Below, piece after piece: positions 3,324 to 25,898 of a stretch of DNA of 32,539 bases. The DNA is from an uncultured bacterium. Lineage in GTDB: Bacteria > Planctomycetota > UBA1135 > GCA-002686595. Under the pieces are notes generated by a model that ran no database searches, was not told the origin of the DNA, and saw only the letters and a program-made list of their open reading frames with translations. Made by a program: the position numbers and the translations under genes. The DNA lies in the NCBI GenBank assembly GCA_902826945.1, contig CADEGS010000022.1, positions 1 to 32,539 of the forward strand. The letters are read 5' to 3'. Within the stretch, counting starts at the first letter, position 1. The number at the start of each line of letters is the position of its first letter.

Positions 3324-5432
3324 ATGGCGAGCCGCTCCGATCGCCATCCCGGTGCTCTCGGGACCAGCGCGGATCCCTCGCTGGAGGCTCCCCGCTCGCC
3401 TGCGGGCTTCGCCAGGGCGCGCTCGCTCGCCGCGCTGCTGCTCCTCGCCGTCGCGGTCGGGGCCGTGTACGTGCGCGCGCTCGACGCCCCGTTCTTCTTC
3501 GACGACCACGACAGCATCCTCGAGAACCCCTCGATCCGCCGGCTCTGGCCGCTGTTCGGGGATCGCCGCTCGCCCGGCCCGCTCGACACGCTGCGCCCCT
3601 CGCCGGTCAGCGGGCGCCCGCTCGTCAACCTGAGCCTGGCCCTCAACTACCGGATCGGCGAGCTCGCGCCGCGCGGCTACCGGATCCTGAACCTCGCGGT
3701 GCACGTCGCGTCCGCGCTGCTCCTCGCGGCCCTCGTGCGGCGCGCGCTGCAGCTCCACGCGCGCGGCGGCGCGCAGGACGGGGCCGTCTGGGTCCCCTCC
3801 GTGGTCGTCGCGCTCCTGTGGGCGCTGCACCCGCTGCAGACCGAGGCGGTGGCATACGTCACGCAGCGCACGGAGCTCTTCGTCGGCTTCTTCTACCTCG
3901 CGACGCTCTACGCCGCCCTGCGCTCGTGGTCGGCGACGAGCCGCGCCGCTCGGCGCGCGTGGACGGCCCTGGCGGGGCTCGCGTGCATGGCCGGGGCCGC
4001 CTCGAAGGAGGTGATCGTCTCCGCGCCGCTGGTCGTGCTGCTCTTCGAGCGCCAGCTCGTCGCGGGCTCGCTGCGCGCGGCGCTGCGGCGCTCGTGGCCG
4101 CTGTACGCCGCGCTGGCCTCGAGCTGGCTCGCGCTGCTCGCGCTCAACGCGCACGGCCCGCGCAGCGCGACGGCCGGGTTCGACCTGGAGGGCGGGCCGT
4201 GGGGCTGGTGGATGACCGAGGCCAAGGTCCTGTGGCTGTACCTGCGGCTGGTCGTGTGGCCCTGGCCGCTCGCGATCCACTACGCGACGCCGCCCCCGCC
4301 CACGCTGGCCGCGGCCTGGCCCTGGGTGGCCGCCACGGCGCTGCTCGCGGCCGGGACCGTCTGGCTGCTCCTCCGCCGCCATCCCTTCGGCTTCCTGGCG
4401 GCGGCGGCGTGGCTCGTGCTCTCGCCCACGCTCGTCGTCCCGATCGGCACCGAGGTCGCGGCCGAGCGGCGCATGCACCTGCCGCTGGCGGCCCTGGCGA
4501 CCATGGCCGTGCTGGGAGCGCTCGCGCTGGGACGGCGCTGGCACGCCTCGCGGGTCCCGCCGCGCTCCGCTCCGCGCGGGACGCGCGCCGTCCTGGCGAG
4601 CGCGACCGCGCTCGTGCTGCTCGTATGCGGGCTGGTCGGCGCGGAGCGGCTCGGCGCGTACGCCTCGGAGCTCTCGATCTGGCGCGACGCGCTCGCCAAG
4701 GAGCCCGACGACCCGATCGTGCACCAGGGCCTGGGGAGCGCGCTGATCGAGCAAGGCCGGTGGGAGGAGGCCGCGCACCACTTCGCTGCGGCGGTCGCGC
4801 TCGACCCGGGCTTCGCCGACGCCTACAACAACCTGGCCGGCGCGCTGGGCAAGCTCGGCCGGCGCGAGGGGGCGCTCGCGGCGCTCGCGCGCAGCGCGGA
4901 GGCGACGCCCGGCAGCGCCGCGGCCCAGCTGGCCTACGGGGGCGCGCTGGCCGAGGCCGGGCGCCTGCGCGAGGCGCTCGTGCGCTTCGACGCGGCCGTG
5001 CGGCTCAAGCCCGGCGACGCGGCGGCCCACTTCGCGCGCGGCACCGCGCTCTTGCGGCTGGGCCGCGCGGCGGACGCGGCCGAGGCGCTCGAGCGCTGCC
5101 TGGAGCTCGAGCCCGACAGGGTCGAGGCGCTGAACAACCTGGGCCTGACGCTCCTCGGTGCCGGTGCGCTCGAGCAGGCGACCGCGCGCTTCGAGCGCGC
5201 CGTCGCGCTCGATCCGCGCTCGGGGGACGCGCACTTCAACCTGGCGCGCGCGCTCCTGCGCGCCGAGCGCACCGACCAGGCCATCGCGCACCTCGAGCAG
5301 GCGCTGGCGCTGGCGCAGAGCGGGCGCGACGCCGCGCTGGCGCGCAACGCGGCCGCCACGCTACGCCGGGTCGACCCCGAGCGGGCGCCCCTCGCCGGCG
5401 GCGAGGACCCAGAGTCCCTGCGAGGCCGCTAG
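3324..5432 (+). CDS. Polytopic TPR protein, TMTC-like glycosyltransferase
   Basis: The 702-residue product has an N-terminal multi-pass membrane region (about 33-450) followed by some six tetratricopeptide repeats (about 456-690). The first loop carries FFFDDHDSILENPSI (57-71), the acidic-pair motif seen in the GT-C fold of TMTC-type protein O-mannosyltransferases and related bacterial TPR membrane proteins; further conserved stretches are RPLVNLSLALNYRI, ALHPLQTEAVAYVTQRTEL and SKEVIVSAPLVVLL. The family likely transfers sugar from a polyprenyl-phosphate donor on the outer face of the membrane; the acceptor here is unknown. The start is an ATG preceded by GGGGAGGAGG at 3301-3310, a strong but somewhat distant (13 nt) Shine-Dalgarno. 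Its TAG stop lies in the left copy of a 10-bp direct repeat that flanks a palindromic element. Confidence 0.8.
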   Translation: MASRSDRHPGALGTSADPSLEAPRSPAGFARARSLAALLLLAVAVGAVYVRALDAPFFFDDHDSILENPSIRRLWPLFGDRRSPGPLDTLRPSPVSGRPLVNLSLALNYRIGELAPRGYRILNLAVHVASALLLAALVRRALQLHARGGAQDGAVWVPSVVVALLWALHPLQTEAVAYVTQRTELFVGFFYLATLYAALRSWSATSRAARRAWTALAGLACMAGAASKEVIVSAPLVVLLFERQLVAGSLRAALRRSWPLYAALASSWLALLALNAHGPRSATAGFDLEGGPWGWWMTEAKVLWLYLRLVVWPWPLAIHYATPPPPTLAAAWPWVAATALLAAGTVWLLLRRHPFGFLAAAAWLVLSPTLVVPIGTEVAAERRMHLPLAALATMAVLGALALGRRWHASRVPPRSAPRGTRAVLASATALVLLVCGLVGAERLGAYASELSIWRDALAKEPDDPIVHQGLGSALIEQGRWEEAAHHFAAAVALDPGFADAYNNLAGALGKLGRREGALAALARSAEATPGSAAAQLAYGGALAEAGRLREALVRFDAAVRLKPGDAAAHFARGTALLRLGRAADAAEALERCLELEPDRVEALNNLGLTLLGAGALEQATARFERAVALDPRSGDAHFNLARALLRAERTDQAIAHLEQALALAQSGRDAALARNAAATLRRVDPERAPLAGGEDPESLRGR
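5423..5432. repeat. Left copy of 10-bp direct repeat AGGCCGCTAG
   Basis: AGGCCGCTAG here is repeated exactly at 5581-5590. This copy holds the TAG stop of the upstream TPR gene. With the second copy it brackets the palindromic element, as a target-site duplication would. Confidence 0.6.
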
Positions 5433-5580
5433 TGTCCTGTCTCCGAAGTCCGTCGACGAAGTCCGGCATCCGCCGTCTGGCGAGGCGCGAGGACGACCGC
5501 GGCTCCAGGGCGATGCGCCGAGGAGGAGCAACGCAGCCGGGCGGTGGAGGAGGGCGAGCTCGTCGACGAGCTCGGGAGAC
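5433..5580 (+). mobile_element. 148-bp palindromic element between convergent genes (divergent family member)
   Basis: No gene fits here. The termini are inverted repeats: CCTGTCTCC (5436-5444) against GGAGACAGG (5575-5583, partly in the flanking repeat), and the arms share GTCGACGA further in. A perfect 20-bp palindrome CGAGCTCGTCGACGAGCTCG lies at 5555-5574. The inner third resembles the elements at 8462 and 23988: CTGGC-R-AGGCGCG, then GACGAC, then GAGGAGG-M-GCAACGC-M-GCC-R-GGCGG in the same order and orientation, while the outer arms differ. Exact 10-bp direct repeats flank the element. The likely reading is a small non-autonomous insertion (MITE- or REP-like) that can fold into a long hairpin; the mobilising enzyme is not in the window. 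Confidence 0.55.
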
Positions 5581-5590
5581 AGGCCGCTAG
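5581..5590. repeat. Right copy of 10-bp direct repeat AGGCCGCTAG
   Basis: Exact repeat of 5423-5432. On the minus strand it holds the TAG stop (5587-5589) of the GT4 glycosyltransferase. Removing one copy plus the element would leave the two convergent genes with stop codons overlapping in CTAG. Confidence 0.6.
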
Positions 5591-6777
5591 GCCCGGCGCT
5601 CGGCGGACGCCTCGGAAGCGTCGGAGCGCGCGCCGCGGCGCGCCTGGGCGCGCAGGGCGGCGCTCGCCAGCGCCTCGCGCAAGAGCCCCTCGAAGCGCGT
5701 CGCGACCGGCGTCCAGCCCAGCTCGGCCTCCGCGAAGGAGCGCGCGTTGCGCGACCAGCGCTGGCGCAGCGCGGGCGAGCCGGCCACGCGCCGGATCGCC
5801 TCCACCCACGCGTCCACCGCGCCCGGCTCGACGAGCATCCCGTGGTCGTCCCCGCGCAGGAGCTCCGCCAGGCGCGGCTGCGCCGAGACCAGCACCGGCA
5901 GCCCGCAGGCGAGCGCGCGCCGCACCTGCTGGCCGCTCGTCACGTCGCCGGTCGCGGGGGCGACGAGCGCGGTGGCGGCCCCCATCAGCCCCGGCAGCTC
6001 CTCGGTCCGCGGGCGCGGCAGCCAGTGCACGTGCGCCGAGACGCCGAGGCGGTCGGCCTGCGCGCGCAGCTGGGGCCTGGCCGGCCCGTCGCCCGCGATC
6101 ACGAGGCTCCAGTCGCCGCGCTGGCCGACCGTGCGCGCGAAGGCCGCCAGCGCGACCTCGACCCCGCGCGACGCCTCCAGACGGCCGACGTACAGGAGGA
6201 TCCGCCCGCGCACGCGGTAGCCGGCGACCAGCGGGCTCGTCAGGCCGGGGCGGAACTGCAGCACGTCCACGCCGTGCGGCACCACGCGCACGACGCTCTC
6301 CTCGAAGCCCTGGCGCAGCGCCTGCTCGCGCGCCACGCCGTCGAGCGCGACCAGCACGTCCGTCGCGCGCCGCACGTAGGCGCCCCACAGGAGCCCGCCG
6401 GCGCGCTGGCGCAGCCGCCGCCAGCTGCGCCCGCTCTTCACCCCCGCCTCCACCAGGACGACCGCGACCCCGCCGCGGCGCGCCAGCCGCGCGGCGCGCA
6501 CGCCCGCGGGCGAGAGCGCGTCGTAGGCGACGACCACCTCGGGCTGGAAGGCGGCCAGCTTCGTCCAGGCGTGCTCGGCCCCGGGCAGCGACTCCTCGCC
6601 GGAGCGCGGCAGGAGCCCGGGCGGCGCGCCGAAGCCGCGCACGACGTGGCCGCGCCCCATCAGCTCGCGCGCGAGCATCGAGGCGTGCTCGCGCCAGCGC
6701 ACGCGCAGGCGCAGCGGCTCGTCCAGCACGATCGACAACGGATCGAGCAGGAGCGCGATGCGCAGGGAGTTCAGCAA
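5587..6777 (-). CDS. GT4-family (GT-B fold) glycosyltransferase
   Basis: The 396-residue cytoplasmic or membrane-associated protein has the two Rossmann halves of GT-B glycosyltransferases. Seen: N-terminal strand RIALLLDP and ASMLARELMGRGHVVRGFGAP, the linker HGVDVLQFRPG, the C-terminal start ILLYVGRLEASRGVEVALAAFA, LVIAGDGPARPQL and LACGLPVLVSAQPRLAELL. The usual EX7E pair of retaining GT4 enzymes is not evident: around TSGQQVRRALACGLP the expected glutamates are replaced, so donor binding may differ. It probably acts in polysaccharide or glycolipid assembly; acceptor and sugar are unknown. The assigned start is TTG at 6777, since no in-frame ATG precedes the conserved first strand. It is convergent with the TPR glycosyltransferase and divergent from the HAD gene. 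Confidence 0.8.
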   Translation of the reverse strand: MLNSLRIALLLDPLSIVLDEPLRLRVRWREHASMLARELMGRGHVVRGFGAPPGLLPRSGEESLPGAEHAWTKLAAFQPEVVVAYDALSPAGVRAARLARRGGVAVVLVEAGVKSGRSWRRLRQRAGGLLWGAYVRRATDVLVALDGVAREQALRQGFEESVVRVVPHGVDVLQFRPGLTSPLVAGYRVRGRILLYVGRLEASRGVEVALAAFARTVGQRGDWSLVIAGDGPARPQLRAQADRLGVSAHVHWLPRPRTEELPGLMGAATALVAPATGDVTSGQQVRRALACGLPVLVSAQPRLAELLRGDDHGMLVEPGAVDAWVEAIRRVAGSPALRQRWSRNARSFAEAELGWTPVATRFEGLLREALASAALRAQARRGARSDASEASAERRA

Positions 6778-7751: not shown

Positions 7752-8189
7752 ATGAAGACGATCCGCGAGCTCTTGACGGGGATGAAGCCGGTAGCCCTCG
7801 AGTCCACGGCGAGCGCGCTCCACGCGGCCCGCGCCATGAAGGACGCGCACGTCGGCGCCGTGCTCGTGACGGGGCCGGACGGCTCGCTGCGCGGCATCTT
7901 CACCGAGCGCGACCTGATGGTGCGCGTGGTCGTCCCGGGCCTGGACCCCTCGGGCGTGCCGCTCGAGCGCGTGATGACGCGCGACCTGTTCATCGCCGGG
8001 CCCTCGCGGCTCGTGAACGAGCTCGGACGCGAGATGCAGGCGCGCCACATCCGCCACCTGCCGGTGGTCGAGGGCGAGCGCGTGCTGGGCCTGCTCAGCC
8101 TGCGCGACATCCTGCGCGCCCACCTCGAGGTGAAGCGCACCGAGGTCCGCGCGCTGCACGCCTACATCCAGGGGGAAGAGCAGGGCTGA
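7752..8189 (+). CDS. Two-CBS-domain protein
   Basis: This small cytoplasmic protein of 145 residues consists almost only of a Bateman module: CBS1 about 7-65 (ending GIFTERDLMVRVV) and CBS2 about 72-130 (MTRDLFIAGP to GLLSLRDILRAHL), with a short charged tail. CBS pairs bind adenine nucleotides or related ligands and regulate partners; stand-alone forms are common and the partner is unknown here. A Shine-Dalgarno (GGAG, 7743-7746) supports the ATG. The TGA stop lies inside the 5' arm of a very long hairpin at 8183-8249. Confidence 0.88.
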   Translation: MKTIRELLTGMKPVALESTASALHAARAMKDAHVGAVLVTGPDGSLRGIFTERDLMVRVVVPGLDPSGVPLERVMTRDLFIAGPSRLVNELGREMQARHIRHLPVVEGERVLGLLSLRDILRAHLEVKRTEVRALHAYIQGEEQG

Positions 8190-8249
8190 GCGACGAGGCT
8201 CGGGGATCCCCGCGCCTCGCGGGGACCCCCGAGCCTCGTCGCTCAGCCC
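8183..8249 (+). terminator. 32-bp-stem hairpin overlapping the CBS stop codon
   Basis: Arms 8183-8214 and 8218-8249 are complementary over 32 bp with one mismatch (A8206 against C8226) and a CCT loop. The CBS stop codon (8187-8189) lies within the left arm. On the minus strand the single mismatch becomes a U-G wobble. This is far longer than an ordinary intrinsic terminator and is followed by three smaller hairpins. Confidence 0.6.
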
Positions 8250-8338
8250 CCGCGGCCGCGTGGCCGCGGCCGGCGCCCCCGCCGTGGCGCCGCAGGCCTC
8301 CTTCGCGCGCAGCGCGAAGCGATCGTCGCGCAGCGACG
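8250..8338. repeat. Three further small hairpins in tandem
   Basis: Perfect small dyads follow: CCGCGGCC/GGCCGCGG (8250-8269), CTTCGCG/CGCGAAG (8301-8319) and CGTCGC/GCGACG (8324-8338). Together with the long hairpin before and the palindromic element after, they fill the convergent gap 8190-8616. Bases 8339-8461 hold no gene that could be recognised. Confidence 0.45.
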
Positions 8339-8461: not shown

Positions 8462-8614
8462 GCTCAGAGAATCCTGCGTGGCTCCCGGTGCCGTCTGGCT
8501 TCGTCCTGGCAAGCGCGCCGACGACGCGTCTTCACGGCAAGACTCGGAGGAGGCGCAACGCCGCCAGGGCGGAGCCAGACGGTGCTGGGGGCCGCGCAGG
8601 ATTCTTTCTCAGGC
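8462..8614 (+). repeat. Palindromic repeat element, copy A
   Basis: This non-coding unit is nearly identical to 23988-24144: over the shared 147 bases there is one substitution and one single-base indel. Arms 8469-8510 and 8563-8604 pair over 42 positions: 35 Watson-Crick and 7 G-U wobbles, no true mismatch, when read as plus-strand RNA. Relative to copy B a 10-bp segment of the left outer arm is missing, so the outer stem is shorter. The 52-nt interior contains GTCTT/AAGAC around a six-base loop. It ends 2 bases before the stop codon of the minus-strand exported protein gene. Confidence 0.8.
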
Positions 8615-8616
8615 TC

Positions 8617-9213
8617 CTAGCGCCCCGGACGCGCCCCGAGCCGGATCTCCTCCCCCGGTCGCACCACGCGCGGCCAGCGCTCGTCGCGCGGGACGCGCGA
8701 GCGCACGCGCGCCGGCGCGCCGCCGTGGTGGCGCACGACCCAGCCGCCGTGCGGGTCCTCGGCGACCTGCAGCGCCGCCTGGGCGACCTCGAGCCGCCAG
8801 CCGTGCGCGAGCTCGAGCCGCAGGCTCGAGCGCCGCGCCTCGACCTCCAGCGCGGCGGCCGCTCCGACGATCACCTCGAGCTCGCCGGTCTCCGGCGCCG
8901 TGCCCCACTCGACCTCCGCCGGCCCCGCCAGGCGCATGCTGCCGAGCGCGCGCCAGGCGACCTCGACCGTCGCGCCCGAGCCCAGCCCGAGCGCCGCGTC
9001 GCCGGCGCCCGAGCCCGGGCCGTCCGGCGGCGTGAGCGTGCGCACGCGCTCCTCCTGCGCGAGCCGCGCCCGCCCGCGCAGGACGCGCACGTCGAAGGCG
9101 GCCGGCCGGCCCGCCGCCGGGCCGTCGAGCCCCTGCCGGGGGGCGGAGCGGCCCGCGGGAGCCCCGGCGGCCAGCGCGGCCAGGGCGAGCGGGAGGACGA
9201 GCCAGGCGCGCAT
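8617..9213 (-). CDS. Exported protein of unknown function, FecR-like features
   Basis: The 198-residue product starts with a signal peptide (MRAWLVLPLALAALAAGAPA) and has no recognised catalytic motif. The middle reads as alternating beta-strands (GATVEVAWRALGSMRLAGPAEVEW, then LEVIVGAAAALEVEARR and LELAHGWRLEVAQAALQV), similar in rhythm to FecR-type domains that sense or scaffold at the envelope; this is a weak resemblance. The ATG at 9213 gives the signal peptide; longer in-frame extension into the McsB region is a shadow. It is the last gene of the minus-strand run, 59 bp after McsB, and stops right beside the palindromic element. Confidence 0.6.
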   Translation of the reverse strand: MRAWLVLPLALAALAAGAPAGRSAPRQGLDGPAAGRPAAFDVRVLRGRARLAQEERVRTLTPPDGPGSGAGDAALGLGSGATVEVAWRALGSMRLAGPAEVEWGTAPETGELEVIVGAAAALEVEARRSSLRLELAHGWRLEVAQAALQVAEDPHGGWVVRHHGGAPARVRSRVPRDERWPRVVRPGEEIRLGARPGR

Positions 9214-23230: not shown

Positions 23231-23875
23231 TCAGTCGAGGCTCAGCTTGGTCAGGTCCTCGACCTGCGAGTCCGGCCCCACGAGCAGGGTCTCGTCGGGG
23301 CCGAGCACGCCCTCCTCGCGCAGCACCTCGAGCTCGAGCGAGCGCACGGTGCCGTCCCCGTAGAGCACGTTGGTCGCCGTGGCGTGGTTCGTCGAGCCGT
23401 CGTTGTCGTCGGCGACCAGCGGCTCCGCCCCGCTCAGGCGCTTGATCGGGTGGTTGCGGGTGTCGCGCCCGGCGTAGGCCGACCACGTGCCGTCGATGCG
23501 GTCGAGCTCGGTCCACCACTCCTGCCACGGCCGCTGGCCGAGCTCGAGGAAGCCCCGGTCCACGGCCGGGCAGGTCAGGCGCTCGGCGTTCGTCTGCGTG
23601 TTCTCGATCGCCTTGCGGGAGTACATCTGCGCGAAGAAGCGCACGCCGCTCTCGCTCGGCAGCTCCTTGTACTTGATCTCGTACAGGAGCAGCGCCTTGT
23701 GGATCTCGCCCAGGTTGCCGGAGCAGCCGGTGACCTTGGCGGTCTCGATCGCGTCGGTGACCATCGGCACCAGCGTCGCGACCAGGACGCCGATGATCAG
23801 GATCACGGCCAGGATCTCGATCAGCGTGAAGCCTGCGCGGCGGGCGCGCGGGGCGAGGCGGCGGAGCAGGGACAT
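23231..23875 (-). CDS. Type II secretion/type IV pilus pseudopilin
   Basis: The 214-residue protein begins with a short basic leader and the class III signal RRAG-FTLIEILAVILIIGVL: cleavage after Gly15, N-methyl-Phe16 and Glu at mature position 5. After the transmembrane helix comes a globular part with two cysteines and HATATNVLYGDGTVRSLEL, like the H-x9-DG tail common in Planctomycetota pseudopilins. It would assemble into a pseudopilus after processing by prepilin peptidase. An ATG at 23875 is preferred; a GTG at 23908 would give an over-long leader. No other secretion genes are nearby. Confidence 0.85.
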   Translation of the reverse strand: MSLLRRLAPRARRAGFTLIEILAVILIIGVLVATLVPMVTDAIETAKVTGCSGNLGEIHKALLLYEIKYKELPSESGVRFFAQMYSRKAIENTQTNAERLTCPAVDRGFLELGQRPWQEWWTELDRIDGTWSAYAGRDTRNHPIKRLSGAEPLVADDNDGSTNHATATNVLYGDGTVRSLELEVLREEGVLGPDETLLVGPDSQVEDLTKLSLD

Positions 23876-23987
23876 GCGCGGGACGGCCGCGCCAGGCGCG
23901 GCCCGCACGTTCTATGCGATGGCGAGGCGCGGGTCACGCCCCCGCGCTCCGGGGAGCGCGGGCAGGCCTCCCCCCGCCCGGCTCAGA

Positions 23988-24144
23988 GCCTGGGAAAGAA
24001 TCCTGCGTGGCTCCCGGTGCCGTCTGGCTTCGTCCTGGCAAGGCGCGCCGACGACGCGTCTTCGCGGCAAGACTCGGAGGAGGCGCAACGCCGCCAGGGC
24101 GGAGCCAGACGGTGCTGGGGGCCGCGCAGGATTCTTTCTCAGGC
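23988..24144 (+). repeat. Palindromic repeat element, copy B
   Basis: Arms 23988-24039 and 24093-24144 pair along their full 52 bp as plus-strand RNA: 44 Watson-Crick and 8 G-U wobbles, no mismatch, enclosing 53 nt with inner stems. It matches copy A at 8462-8614 with two differences in the shared 148 bases. GCTCAG occurs immediately outside both ends (23981-23986 and 24145-24150); the right one contains the TGA stop of the glycosyltransferase gene. The remainder of the gap (23876-23980) holds no recognisable gene. Confidence 0.82.
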
Positions 24145-24146
24145 GC

Positions 24147-25898
24147 TCAGCCGGAGCGGGGCCGGACGGCGAAGACCGCCGGCTCGAGCGGTGTCCCCGG
24201 CTCCTGCACCAGCTCGAGGCGCAGCGGGGCGTCGGGACCCAGCCGCCGCGCGCACAGGGCGTAGACGATCCACTGCCAGTCGAAGACGAGGTCCACGCCG
24301 CGCTCGAGCAGGTACGGCCCGATCGCGCCGGCGTGCAGGGCGCGCTGCGCGTCGGGGTTGACCTTGCCGTCGAGGTTCACGACCGGCCGCCCGGAGAAGT
24401 AGGCGAGCGCGCCGGCCTGGAAGGCGCCGATGCGCTGGTCGGCGGCGACGCGCGGCGCCATGCGCCGCCAGGCGCTGACGAAGCCGTTCGGAGGCGCGCC
24501 GCCGCGCGCGAGCGTCGCGTAGGGCTGGCCCTCCGCGGGGCGGTAGCCGGTCGCGACGCCGGCCCAGGCGAGCAGCGCGAGCGCCGTGCCGAGCGCTCGC
24601 CGCGGCGCGCGCGGCAGCCGTCCCAGCGCGCGCGCCAGCGCTCCGACCGCCGCGACGGTCGTGACCAGCACGAGCGGCACGAGGTAGCGCGCGAAGAACC
24701 AGTGCACCGGCGCGAGGAAGGTGTAGCCCGCCAGCGTCAGGAGGAAGGTCAGCGCCGCGATCCCGCCCAGGCGCGGGTCGGCGCCCCGCGCGCGGCGCCA
24801 GGGCAGGCAGGCGAGCAGCACGAGCGCGAGCAGCGCCGCGAGCCGGGCAGCGCGCCCCGGCGGGTCGGCGCGGAACCAGCCGAGCAGGCGCGACGAGCCG
24901 GCGTCGGCCCAGAAGGTGAACGGCTGGTCGAGGCGGAAGGCGGAGAGGAGCGGGTGCTCGAACAGGAACACCGAGAGGAAGCGCGTCGCGACGTCGGCGT
25001 GCCACGCGGGCGGCACGTCCTCGACGTCGAAGAAGGGCTGCGCGGGCGGCGGCGTCCAGACCGGCTGCAGGTGCGCCCAGCCGTACTGCAGCGCGATCTC
25101 GCGCCCGGCCGGGCCGCTCTGCGGCGTCCAGCGGCCGGTCGCGCGCTGGCTCGCGACGCCCCAGCAGGCCCACACGGCGAGCGCCGTCGCTCCCGCCACG
25201 GCCATGCGCGGGAGGGCGGCCGCGAGCGCGCGCCGCCGCAGCGCGCCGACGACCCAGTCCAGCGCCAGCGCCGCGCCCAGGAAGCCGAGGTCGATGCGCG
25301 CGAGCAGCGCCAGGCCGCCCGCCGCGCCGAGCGCGAGCGCGCGCGCGAGGCTCGGCGGGGCCTGCGCGCGCGCGCAGCGCAGGTAGGCGAGCAAGAGCAC
25401 GAGCGCGCACAGCGCCGCCGAGCCCGTGTCCATGCCGTTCGCGCTGTGGGCGAGGAACGAGGGCGAGAGCGCCCACAGGCCGAGGAGCGCCACGCCCGCC
25501 CACGGCCCGCCGACGCGCCGGCCGAGCCGCTCGAGCGCGATCCCCGCGCAGAGCGCCACGACCGCCGCCAGCACGCCCGCCGCGCGCAGGCGCGCCAGCG
25601 GATCCGCCCCGACCATCCAGCGCAGGGGCACGAGCGCCAGCATGTAGAGCGGCGAGAAGCCGTTCGTCGCCACCGTCCCGTCGAAGGTCATCCCGTGGCC
25701 CTGCGCCACGTGGTCGGCGATCACCAGGTAATAGAAGGCGTCGTCCTGGAGGAAGTCGGACGCCATGGCCGTGTCGGGGTCGGCCAGGCCCACCCACAGC
25801 CGGCCGGCGAGCGTGACGAGCGCCAGGACCAGAGCGCAGGCGAGCTCGGCGCGGCTGCGCCTCGCGCGCGGCGGCTCGGGCGCGGGGACGTCGCTCAT
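24147..25898 (-). CDS. Polytopic membrane glycosyltransferase (GT-C-like)
   Basis: The 583-residue protein has about ten or more transmembrane segments and a large C-terminal soluble region. The first periplasmic loop carries FLQDDAFYYLVIADHVAQGHG (Asp52, Asp53), the acidic pair typical of GT-C enzymes using polyprenyl-linked sugars; GMTFDGTVATNGFSPLYML and VNLDGKVNPDA are further conserved-looking stretches. It likely glycosylates lipid or polysaccharide on the outer face. Its stop lies 2 bases from the palindromic element B. Start ATG at 25898; it is divergent from the exoribonuclease. Confidence 0.75.
   Translation of the reverse strand: MSDVPAPEPPRARRSRAELACALVLALVTLAGRLWVGLADPDTAMASDFLQDDAFYYLVIADHVAQGHGMTFDGTVATNGFSPLYMLALVPLRWMVGADPLARLRAAGVLAAVVALCAGIALERLGRRVGGPWAGVALLGLWALSPSFLAHSANGMDTGSAALCALVLLLAYLRCARAQAPPSLARALALGAAGGLALLARIDLGFLGAALALDWVVGALRRRALAAALPRMAVAGATALAVWACWGVASQRATGRWTPQSGPAGREIALQYGWAHLQPVWTPPPAQPFFDVEDVPPAWHADVATRFLSVFLFEHPLLSAFRLDQPFTFWADAGSSRLLGWFRADPPGRAARLAALLALVLLACLPWRRARGADPRLGGIAALTFLLTLAGYTFLAPVHWFFARYLVPLVLVTTVAAVGALARALGRLPRAPRRALGTALALLAWAGVATGYRPAEGQPYATLARGGAPPNGFVSAWRRMAPRVAADQRIGAFQAGALAYFSGRPVVNLDGKVNPDAQRALHAGAIGPYLLERGVDLVFDWQWIVYALCARRLGPDAPLRLELVQEPGTPLEPAVFAVRPRSG

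Follow-up and report, generated by a model that had tools for sequence, protein, structure and literature searches.

Bacterial MITEs of the IS5 type are derived from IS elements and use TNA or CTAG targets. IS-derived MITEs share with the element described here inverted ends, a short target duplication, the lack of a transposase gene and a presumed mobilisation in trans; however, an ordinary MITE is not expected to keep a conserved single-strand structure, as this element does, and for this element no parent was found. REP elements, tagged by GTAG/CGTC, are likewise high-copy extragenic palindromes, but are 20–40 bp long (PMC3733652) as opposed to about 170 bp here. The bcr1 repeat, of 147 or 167 bp, is dispersed in tens of copies, folds, and has the traits of a mobile element (PMC6542083, PMC2267715); it thus resembles our element in being short, dispersed, folded and mobile in character, but it is described as confined to the Bacillus cereus group and its ends are associated with TTTAT, whereas those here are of the CTNAG/TNA type. 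The closest published motif that we found is MRSC-65-2, presented as a single long covarying stem with more than 20 000 representatives, often dozens per genome, across several phyla, and read as selfish (PMC11109978); long-stem mobile repeats can therefore be very numerous. Whether its structure works as RNA or as DNA is a question that its authors do not settle.

The single long covarying stem and the dozens of copies per genome are common to MRSC-65-2 and our element. The two are set apart by description rather than by alignment, and on that basis the UYCCGG repeat, conserved in MRSC-65-2, is not conserved here. At least one UYCCGG occurs on the plus strand of 0 of 86, 3 of 20 and 2 of 3 copies and on the minus strand of 3 of 86, 3 of 20 and 0 of 3, and over both strands of all 109 copies the motif is found 0.14 times per element against 0.27 in shuffles, which is below expectation. 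For this reason we did not file the element under MRSC-65-2. Relative to what is described of that motif, the element adds a CAAGGCGCG core, CTNAG/TNA ends and a test of strand. Among the open-licence papers searched, the name MRSC-65-2 itself appeared in PMC11109978 alone, and judged by titles and the beginnings of abstracts no account of the present family was recognised there.

The locus lies in a 32,539-nt stretch of DNA from an uncultured bacterium, referred to here as the window, with a G+C content of 75.7%; the organism-named relatives of its arginine-kinase gene (6 rows among the 120 matches listed) are all Planctomycetota. We take the window, with some doubt, to be a metagenomic contig of that phylum. 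Both strands were scanned for unbroken stems of at least 17 pairs, allowing G-U and loops of 3–80 nt. The two longest stems in the window are those of two hairpins, copies B and A, followed on the plus strand by a stem of 23 pairs. Copy B has a 52-pair stem closed by the outer pair 23988/24144, with 44 Watson-Crick and 8 G-U pairs on the plus strand and a loop of 53 nt, and so bears out the sequence-only reading, which had described 52-bp arms with eight T/G differences. The further statement that the stem pairs only as plus-strand RNA was too strong: the minus strand folds as well, with A-C mismatches. Folded as RNA, the 181 nt around B reach −148.7 kcal/mol (plus strand) and −116.1 (minus strand), and on either strand none of 200 shuffles was as low. 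The best minus-strand stem in the window, with 33 pairs, a 3-nt loop and 97% complementary arms, lies at 8182-8250; it starts at the stop codon of a CBS-domain gene, has CTGAG and CTCAG close to its ends, and may be a terminator or another small element.

Features of the element and its surroundings in the window. Model R2 is the covariance model built from the copies of another genome.
Feature	Position	Strand	Description and basis
Copy B, full length	23982..24152	+	Stem 23988-24039 with 24093-24144; stem scan, fold, model R2
5′ CTCAG of B	23982..23986		TCA 23983-23985, candidate 3-bp target duplication; sequence, register from model match
3′ CTCAG of B	24146..24150		TCA 24147-24149, second copy of the candidate duplication
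Conserved apical core of B, CTGGCAAGGCGCG...GAGGAGGCGCAACGCC	24035..24102	+	Fold, alignment with C
Flanking gene of B	23231..23872	-	Prepilin-type N-terminal methylation motif protein; PF07963, E 3.6e-6
Flanking gene of B	24147..25898	-	583-aa protein; the 3′ CTCAG of B contains the gene end
Copy A	8463..8612	+	Stem scan; model R2 52.6 bits, E 1.9e-11
Copy C, diverged	about 5428..5593	+	Blastn, sequence and fold, inverted ends; model R2 23 bits, E 2.6e-4
Flanking gene of C	3324..5432	+	TPR protein; stop TAG 5430-5432 within the 5′ CTAG
Flanking gene of C	5587..6777	-	Glycosyl transferase group 1; stop within the 3′ CTAG

The apical core of B folds with paired GA/GA internal loops (24050-24051 with 24080-24081, and 24053-24054 with 24077-24078) and a 3-nt bulge at 24087-24089. 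These two internal loops and the bulge are conserved across the relatives described below, and within the core CAAGGC occurs in 99, and AGGCGC in 108, of the 109 copies. At the 3′ end of B, the TCA of the candidate duplication, read in reverse complement, supplies the stop codon for the minus-strand gene that follows. The 583-aa product of that gene has no Pfam match of its own; some of its homologues carry PF13231 or a glycosyltransferase name, and its sole organism-named relative is from a Myxococcota bacterium (41%).

Copy A was said to show the same pattern in 42-bp arms; its eight G-U pairs were found, in arms of 45 pairs (8466-8607, loop 52 nt). Over 148 nt its identity to B is 98.6%, and by our reading of the two sequences its outer 5′ arm is 10 nt shorter than that of B. 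The sequence around A folds at −128.5 on the plus and −102.7 on the minus strand. Since A and B share their arm differences at this level of identity they represent one evolutionary observation, and the chance of about 1 in 128 to 1 in 256 previously given for so one-sided a set of differences counts once. Sensitive blastn of B against the window identified a further match at 5477-5544 (77% over 69 nt, E 7e-8), which is the tip of a third hairpin, copy C, at about 5428-5590. Its outer arms are unlike those of A and B yet complementary to one another, and each of them is 11 nt shorter than in A and B, again by reading of the sequences. The arm differences of C comprise 5 G-U, 5 A-C and 8 other mismatches, so that this independent copy has no strand bias. 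All three copies abut gene ends: CTAG stands at both ends of C (5429-5432 and 5587-5590) and contains the stop codons of the flanking convergent genes, and CTAG at 8617-8620, just past A, contains the stop of a minus-strand ORF ending at 8617. Copy C is in addition flanked by a 9-bp direct repeat, GGCCGCTAG (5424-5432 and 5582-5590), which exceeds the 2–3 bp of the family.

Relatives were found in a phylum that we assigned only from the title of the record 'Actinomycetes bacterium isolate Dive100_bin2.26'. Comparing the 68-nt tip of B with 149 genomes of this phylum gave matches in four, and in one of these, G113, the match was within a long hairpin having the same tip; the other three, and partial loop matches at loci L025-L028 and L023, look like chance. 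A first, small model (R1), applied to the window only, recovered A, B and C at E values of about 2e-15 or lower, with the next match at 0.028. The covariance model R2 was then built from 26 copies of G113 alone, with no window sequence (34 matches were listed, 30 fetched and 26 taken into alignments; L054, L055 and L057 were left out for having another 5′ half and L058 for being cut). Applied to the window, R2 gave B 66.7 bits (E 7.7e-15) over model positions 1-172 and matched B, A and C over their full length, each on the plus strand; the match ranked after them (E 0.003) was on the minus strand and lacked most of the middle of the model. Because R2 contains no window sequence these matches are independent evidence of homology.

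With R2 we found 35 matches in G113, and positives in 15 of the 59 genomes around it (G113 included) and in 28 of 396 sampled genomes of the Actinomycetes-titled phylum. Copies per genome were counted from at most 47 scored candidates in the 59-genome search and at most 7 in the 396-genome search; G135 and G306 each had at least 47. In G306 the first ~145 bases of many contigs (C12, C19, C37, C94, C130, C255, C256 and others) lie inside an element, and the 47 copies counted in this 1.9-Mb genome are therefore probably an underestimate. None of 400 genomes from the phylum of G001 matched, an empty answer that by itself shows nothing, and the relatives found belong to one named phylum in addition to that of the window. 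The three G113 copies left out for their 5′ half have a normal 3′ half joined to a different repeated sequence, GGTAGGCCACAGGTC..., and are chimeric or a second, related family.

Searches of known collections yielded no counterpart. With Rfam release 15, no family reached its gathering score anywhere in the window; with the limit relaxed to E 1, nothing matched within 23800-24300 or at the element in the loci of seven relatives. Near one of these elements, L054 1871-1978 gave sub-threshold scores against several microRNA precursor models on both strands and is probably another palindromic repeat. An exact search of a public genome collection with the inverted ends of B returned 13 stretches, all of which proved on inspection to lack the element's arms; viral contigs gave three matches in all, without a comparable hairpin; and similarity searches of plasmids and phages gave weak partial matches only, six plasmid loci being folded and found to be without the element's arms.

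The G-U against A-C comparison on arms held in a fixed register decides between the symmetry of double-stranded DNA and folding of a single strand, and here the result is clear. A set of 126 copies from 10 genomes was assembled from the 26 of G113 and 100 chosen among those listed matches that scored better and left enough sequence on either side for flanks, and therefore leans towards well-kept copies. In their outer 20-bp arms we counted 2144 Watson-Crick, 323 G-U, 14 A-C and 39 other cells. Counted without folding in the 86 aligned copies, from the same 10 genomes, the inverted ends of about 22 bp are Watson-Crick in 1560 of 1805 gap-free cells, with 210 G-U, 11 A-C and 24 other. In a more diverged set, 20 copies drawn from 16 other genomes and placed in register with no preference for G-U over A-C, the counts were 327 Watson-Crick, 35 G-U, 4 A-C and 34 other cells, and the plus strand had the lower minimum free energy in all 20. 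The idea of selection for a structured RNA had been tied to arm differences that break pairing less often on the plus than on the minus strand, and this is what both sets of relatives display, although C, the one independent copy in the window, does not. The 34 internal pairs show 277 G-U against 16 A-C, a count that leans to G-U as the pairs were taken from the plus-strand fold; the alignment folds at −70.95 on the plus strand and −19.23 as the reverse complement.

It should be considered that cells from related copies are not independent, and private changes were therefore examined too. In 28 copies having two near neighbours within 6 differences, Watson-Crick pairs had changed to G-U 20 times, to A-C 5 times and to other mismatches 5 times. 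This bears on the possibility that the element is an ordinary MITE, with arms alike because a transposase needs both ends, and that its G-U excess stems from strand-biased mutation such as deamination of the non-template strand. The MITE features are indeed present, and in unpaired columns C/T variation is somewhat above G/A, with 176 minor cells in 21 pyrimidine columns and 132 in 38 purine columns. However, at the closest distance, where 20 changes led to G-U and 5 to A-C, the stem substitutions showed no preference for either strand (C>T 9, G>A 8, A>G 11, T>C 7). In wider neighbourhoods changes to G-U against A-C numbered 41 to 7, 62 to 16 and 82 to 19, with stem C>T against G>A at 24 to 13, 37 to 21 and 53 to 26, an excess of about twofold that selection for pairing would itself also produce; neither this skew nor that of the unpaired columns nears a ratio of 20. 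Pairs internal to the element and outside its ends also covary, and the internal loops are kept, which makes the ordinary MITE a highly improbable account. Pairing is maintained through G-U and rarely through A-C, and hence selection acts on a single strand, the plus strand.

Compensatory changes, a second form of evidence that had been suggested for the fold, are plentiful. Over 57 pairs in the 86 copies, 97.7% of cells are paired, compared with 92.0 in shuffled alignments and 27–46 when partners are slid by 1–3 columns, and 30 of the 57 pairs changed on both sides, compared with 16.9 after shuffling. A coding explanation was rejected: one frame is open in 82 of the 86 copies, but without a codon-position signal (entropy 0.50, 0.41, 0.52), and 15 of the 86 element lengths are out of phase with the commonest length. 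This frame, plus frame 1, can begin with a GTG that coincides with the element's first base and extend towards a stop in the target duplication; most copies have two open frames. The spurious ORF over the element, treated as a protein, led to P0013 (102 aa; 86% over 22 aa, E 1.4), which is not significant; P0013 may itself be an erroneous ORF call on a further copy.

The strand-specific G-U excess would look identical if the structure mattered as single-stranded DNA, the plus-strand hairpin being recognised in transposition or replication, and for MRSC-65-2 the same possibility is left open by its authors (PMC11109978). Folded as DNA, B gives the same stem. Hairpins of IS200/IS605-type and attC-type sites are recognised as single strands, and G-T is better tolerated than A-C in DNA too. 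Set against this, inverted ends with a 3-bp duplication are unlike the single-strand transposition of IS200/IS605, and the orientation of the copies fits transcription better: between co-directional genes the plus strand of the element is sense in 49 cases and antisense in 26 (p 0.011), B being among the antisense copies. Action as single-stranded DNA therefore seems to us fairly unlikely, and action as RNA likely.

The ends of the element resemble those of a transposon. In the main relatives they read C-TNA-GTG...CAC-TNA-G, the end sequence of the family being given as GTGCCYCGTTCCATRRATACGG; some diverged copies, and C in the window, have CTAG at both ends instead of CTNAG. Identical 3-mers stand at both ends of 40 of 126 copies, where permutation gave a mean of 17.6 and a maximum of 32 in 20000, and the remaining 86 lack them. 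In the register of the model, 25 of 60 copies match over 3 nt and none over more; this exact register supersedes a cruder parsing of the ends, which left 16 of 86 copies unparsed and gave identical 3-mers in 25 of 70. We dropped a retron or msDNA-repeat interpretation, since a transposon is indicated by the ends together with the 3-bp duplication.

Insertion of one copy into another was also seen. Three of the 60 copies whose flanks were read sit in the tip of another copy at the same position (L112, L121 and L124 of G135), one of them doubly nested inside a second host copy; these were spotted in 14-nt flanks. Their flanking 3-mers are unequal (TCA with TAA, TAA and TTA), so the insertions may be old or repaired. 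In G306 a 205-bp element (L169 477-681) shares the inverted ends and is bordered on either side by CTTAG, yet differs in its interior, so that the RNA core is not needed for the insertion of that relative. Together with one copy in G053 that is a shortened form of about 90 bp, it suggests that the ends are recognised in trans. In eight genomes, 17 hits to the transposase family PF01609 were found in six, with no locus bearing a pair of such ends, and PF13586 was found in 0 of 11 genomes; a family outside these two could encode the transposase.

Gene context was taken from a simple codon-based gene call (our own script), in which an ORF was disregarded if its overlap with the element exceeded 80 nt. 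By this rough call the copies are mostly intergenic: 116 of 126 have no ORF over more than 80 nt of the element, 2 are partly and 8 wholly spanned (L034, L041, L089, L109, L125, L132, L142 and L227), and some of the copies under ORFs may lie inside genes and be read through in frame. Within 6 nt of the element's 5′ end, plus-strand genes stop in 27 of the 126 copies and start in 12; within 6 nt of its 3′ end, minus-strand genes stop in 22 and start in 3. Such placement, together with the gene ends at all three window copies and recent changes that still favour G-U, is in keeping with hairpins used by the host in 3′-UTRs as repeated terminators or mRNA stabilisers, the fold then being maintained by the host and not by the element. 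Yet orientation is mixed, no U-run follows the stem in 60 copies, which removes an intrinsic terminator from consideration, and a simple terminator needs neither conserved internal loops nor one strand only. Stop codons can come from CTNAG and CTAG themselves, and the settling at gene ends could be explained by a CTNAG target alone. We regard maintenance by the host as unlikely.

We conclude that the hairpin at 23988-24144 is probably a member of a dispersed, MITE-like family of non-autonomous mobile elements of about 170 nt whose plus strand forms a structured RNA. The sequence-only reading had proposed selection for a structured RNA, either as a functional ncRNA or as a folding step of a mobile element, and is largely supported by the G-U excess and the compensatory changes, which do not separate RNA from single-stranded DNA; the transposon-like ends and the 3-bp target duplications go beyond it. 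Our best reading joins both halves of that proposal, in that the element moves as DNA and has a plus strand with a conserved fold. Its movement is probably due to a transposase that works on the inverted ends in trans, and the plus strand would be transcribed, from its own or a neighbouring promoter, and would work as a folded RNA. With less assurance, we suggest that the fold is kept as it helps the element to persist or spread, perhaps by recruiting or guarding something in cis or by rendering insertions at gene ends harmless as a 3′-UTR hairpin. A role in persistence or spread is preferred because lineages of copies retain the fold as their locations change, and the latest changes in single copies are also compatible with it.

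The fuller proposition, of a gene-less DNA transposon-like element that depends for its movement or survival on its own plus-strand folded RNA, occurs in at least two phyla and tends to settle at stop codons by way of its CTNAG target, is one that we hold tentatively and with more doubt than confidence. If true, the element would be a pair of transposase sites and an RNA gene at once. Should the strand act as RNA, an RNA component would be part of a mobile element that has transposon ends, and what it does could be tested directly in any culturable host of the family.
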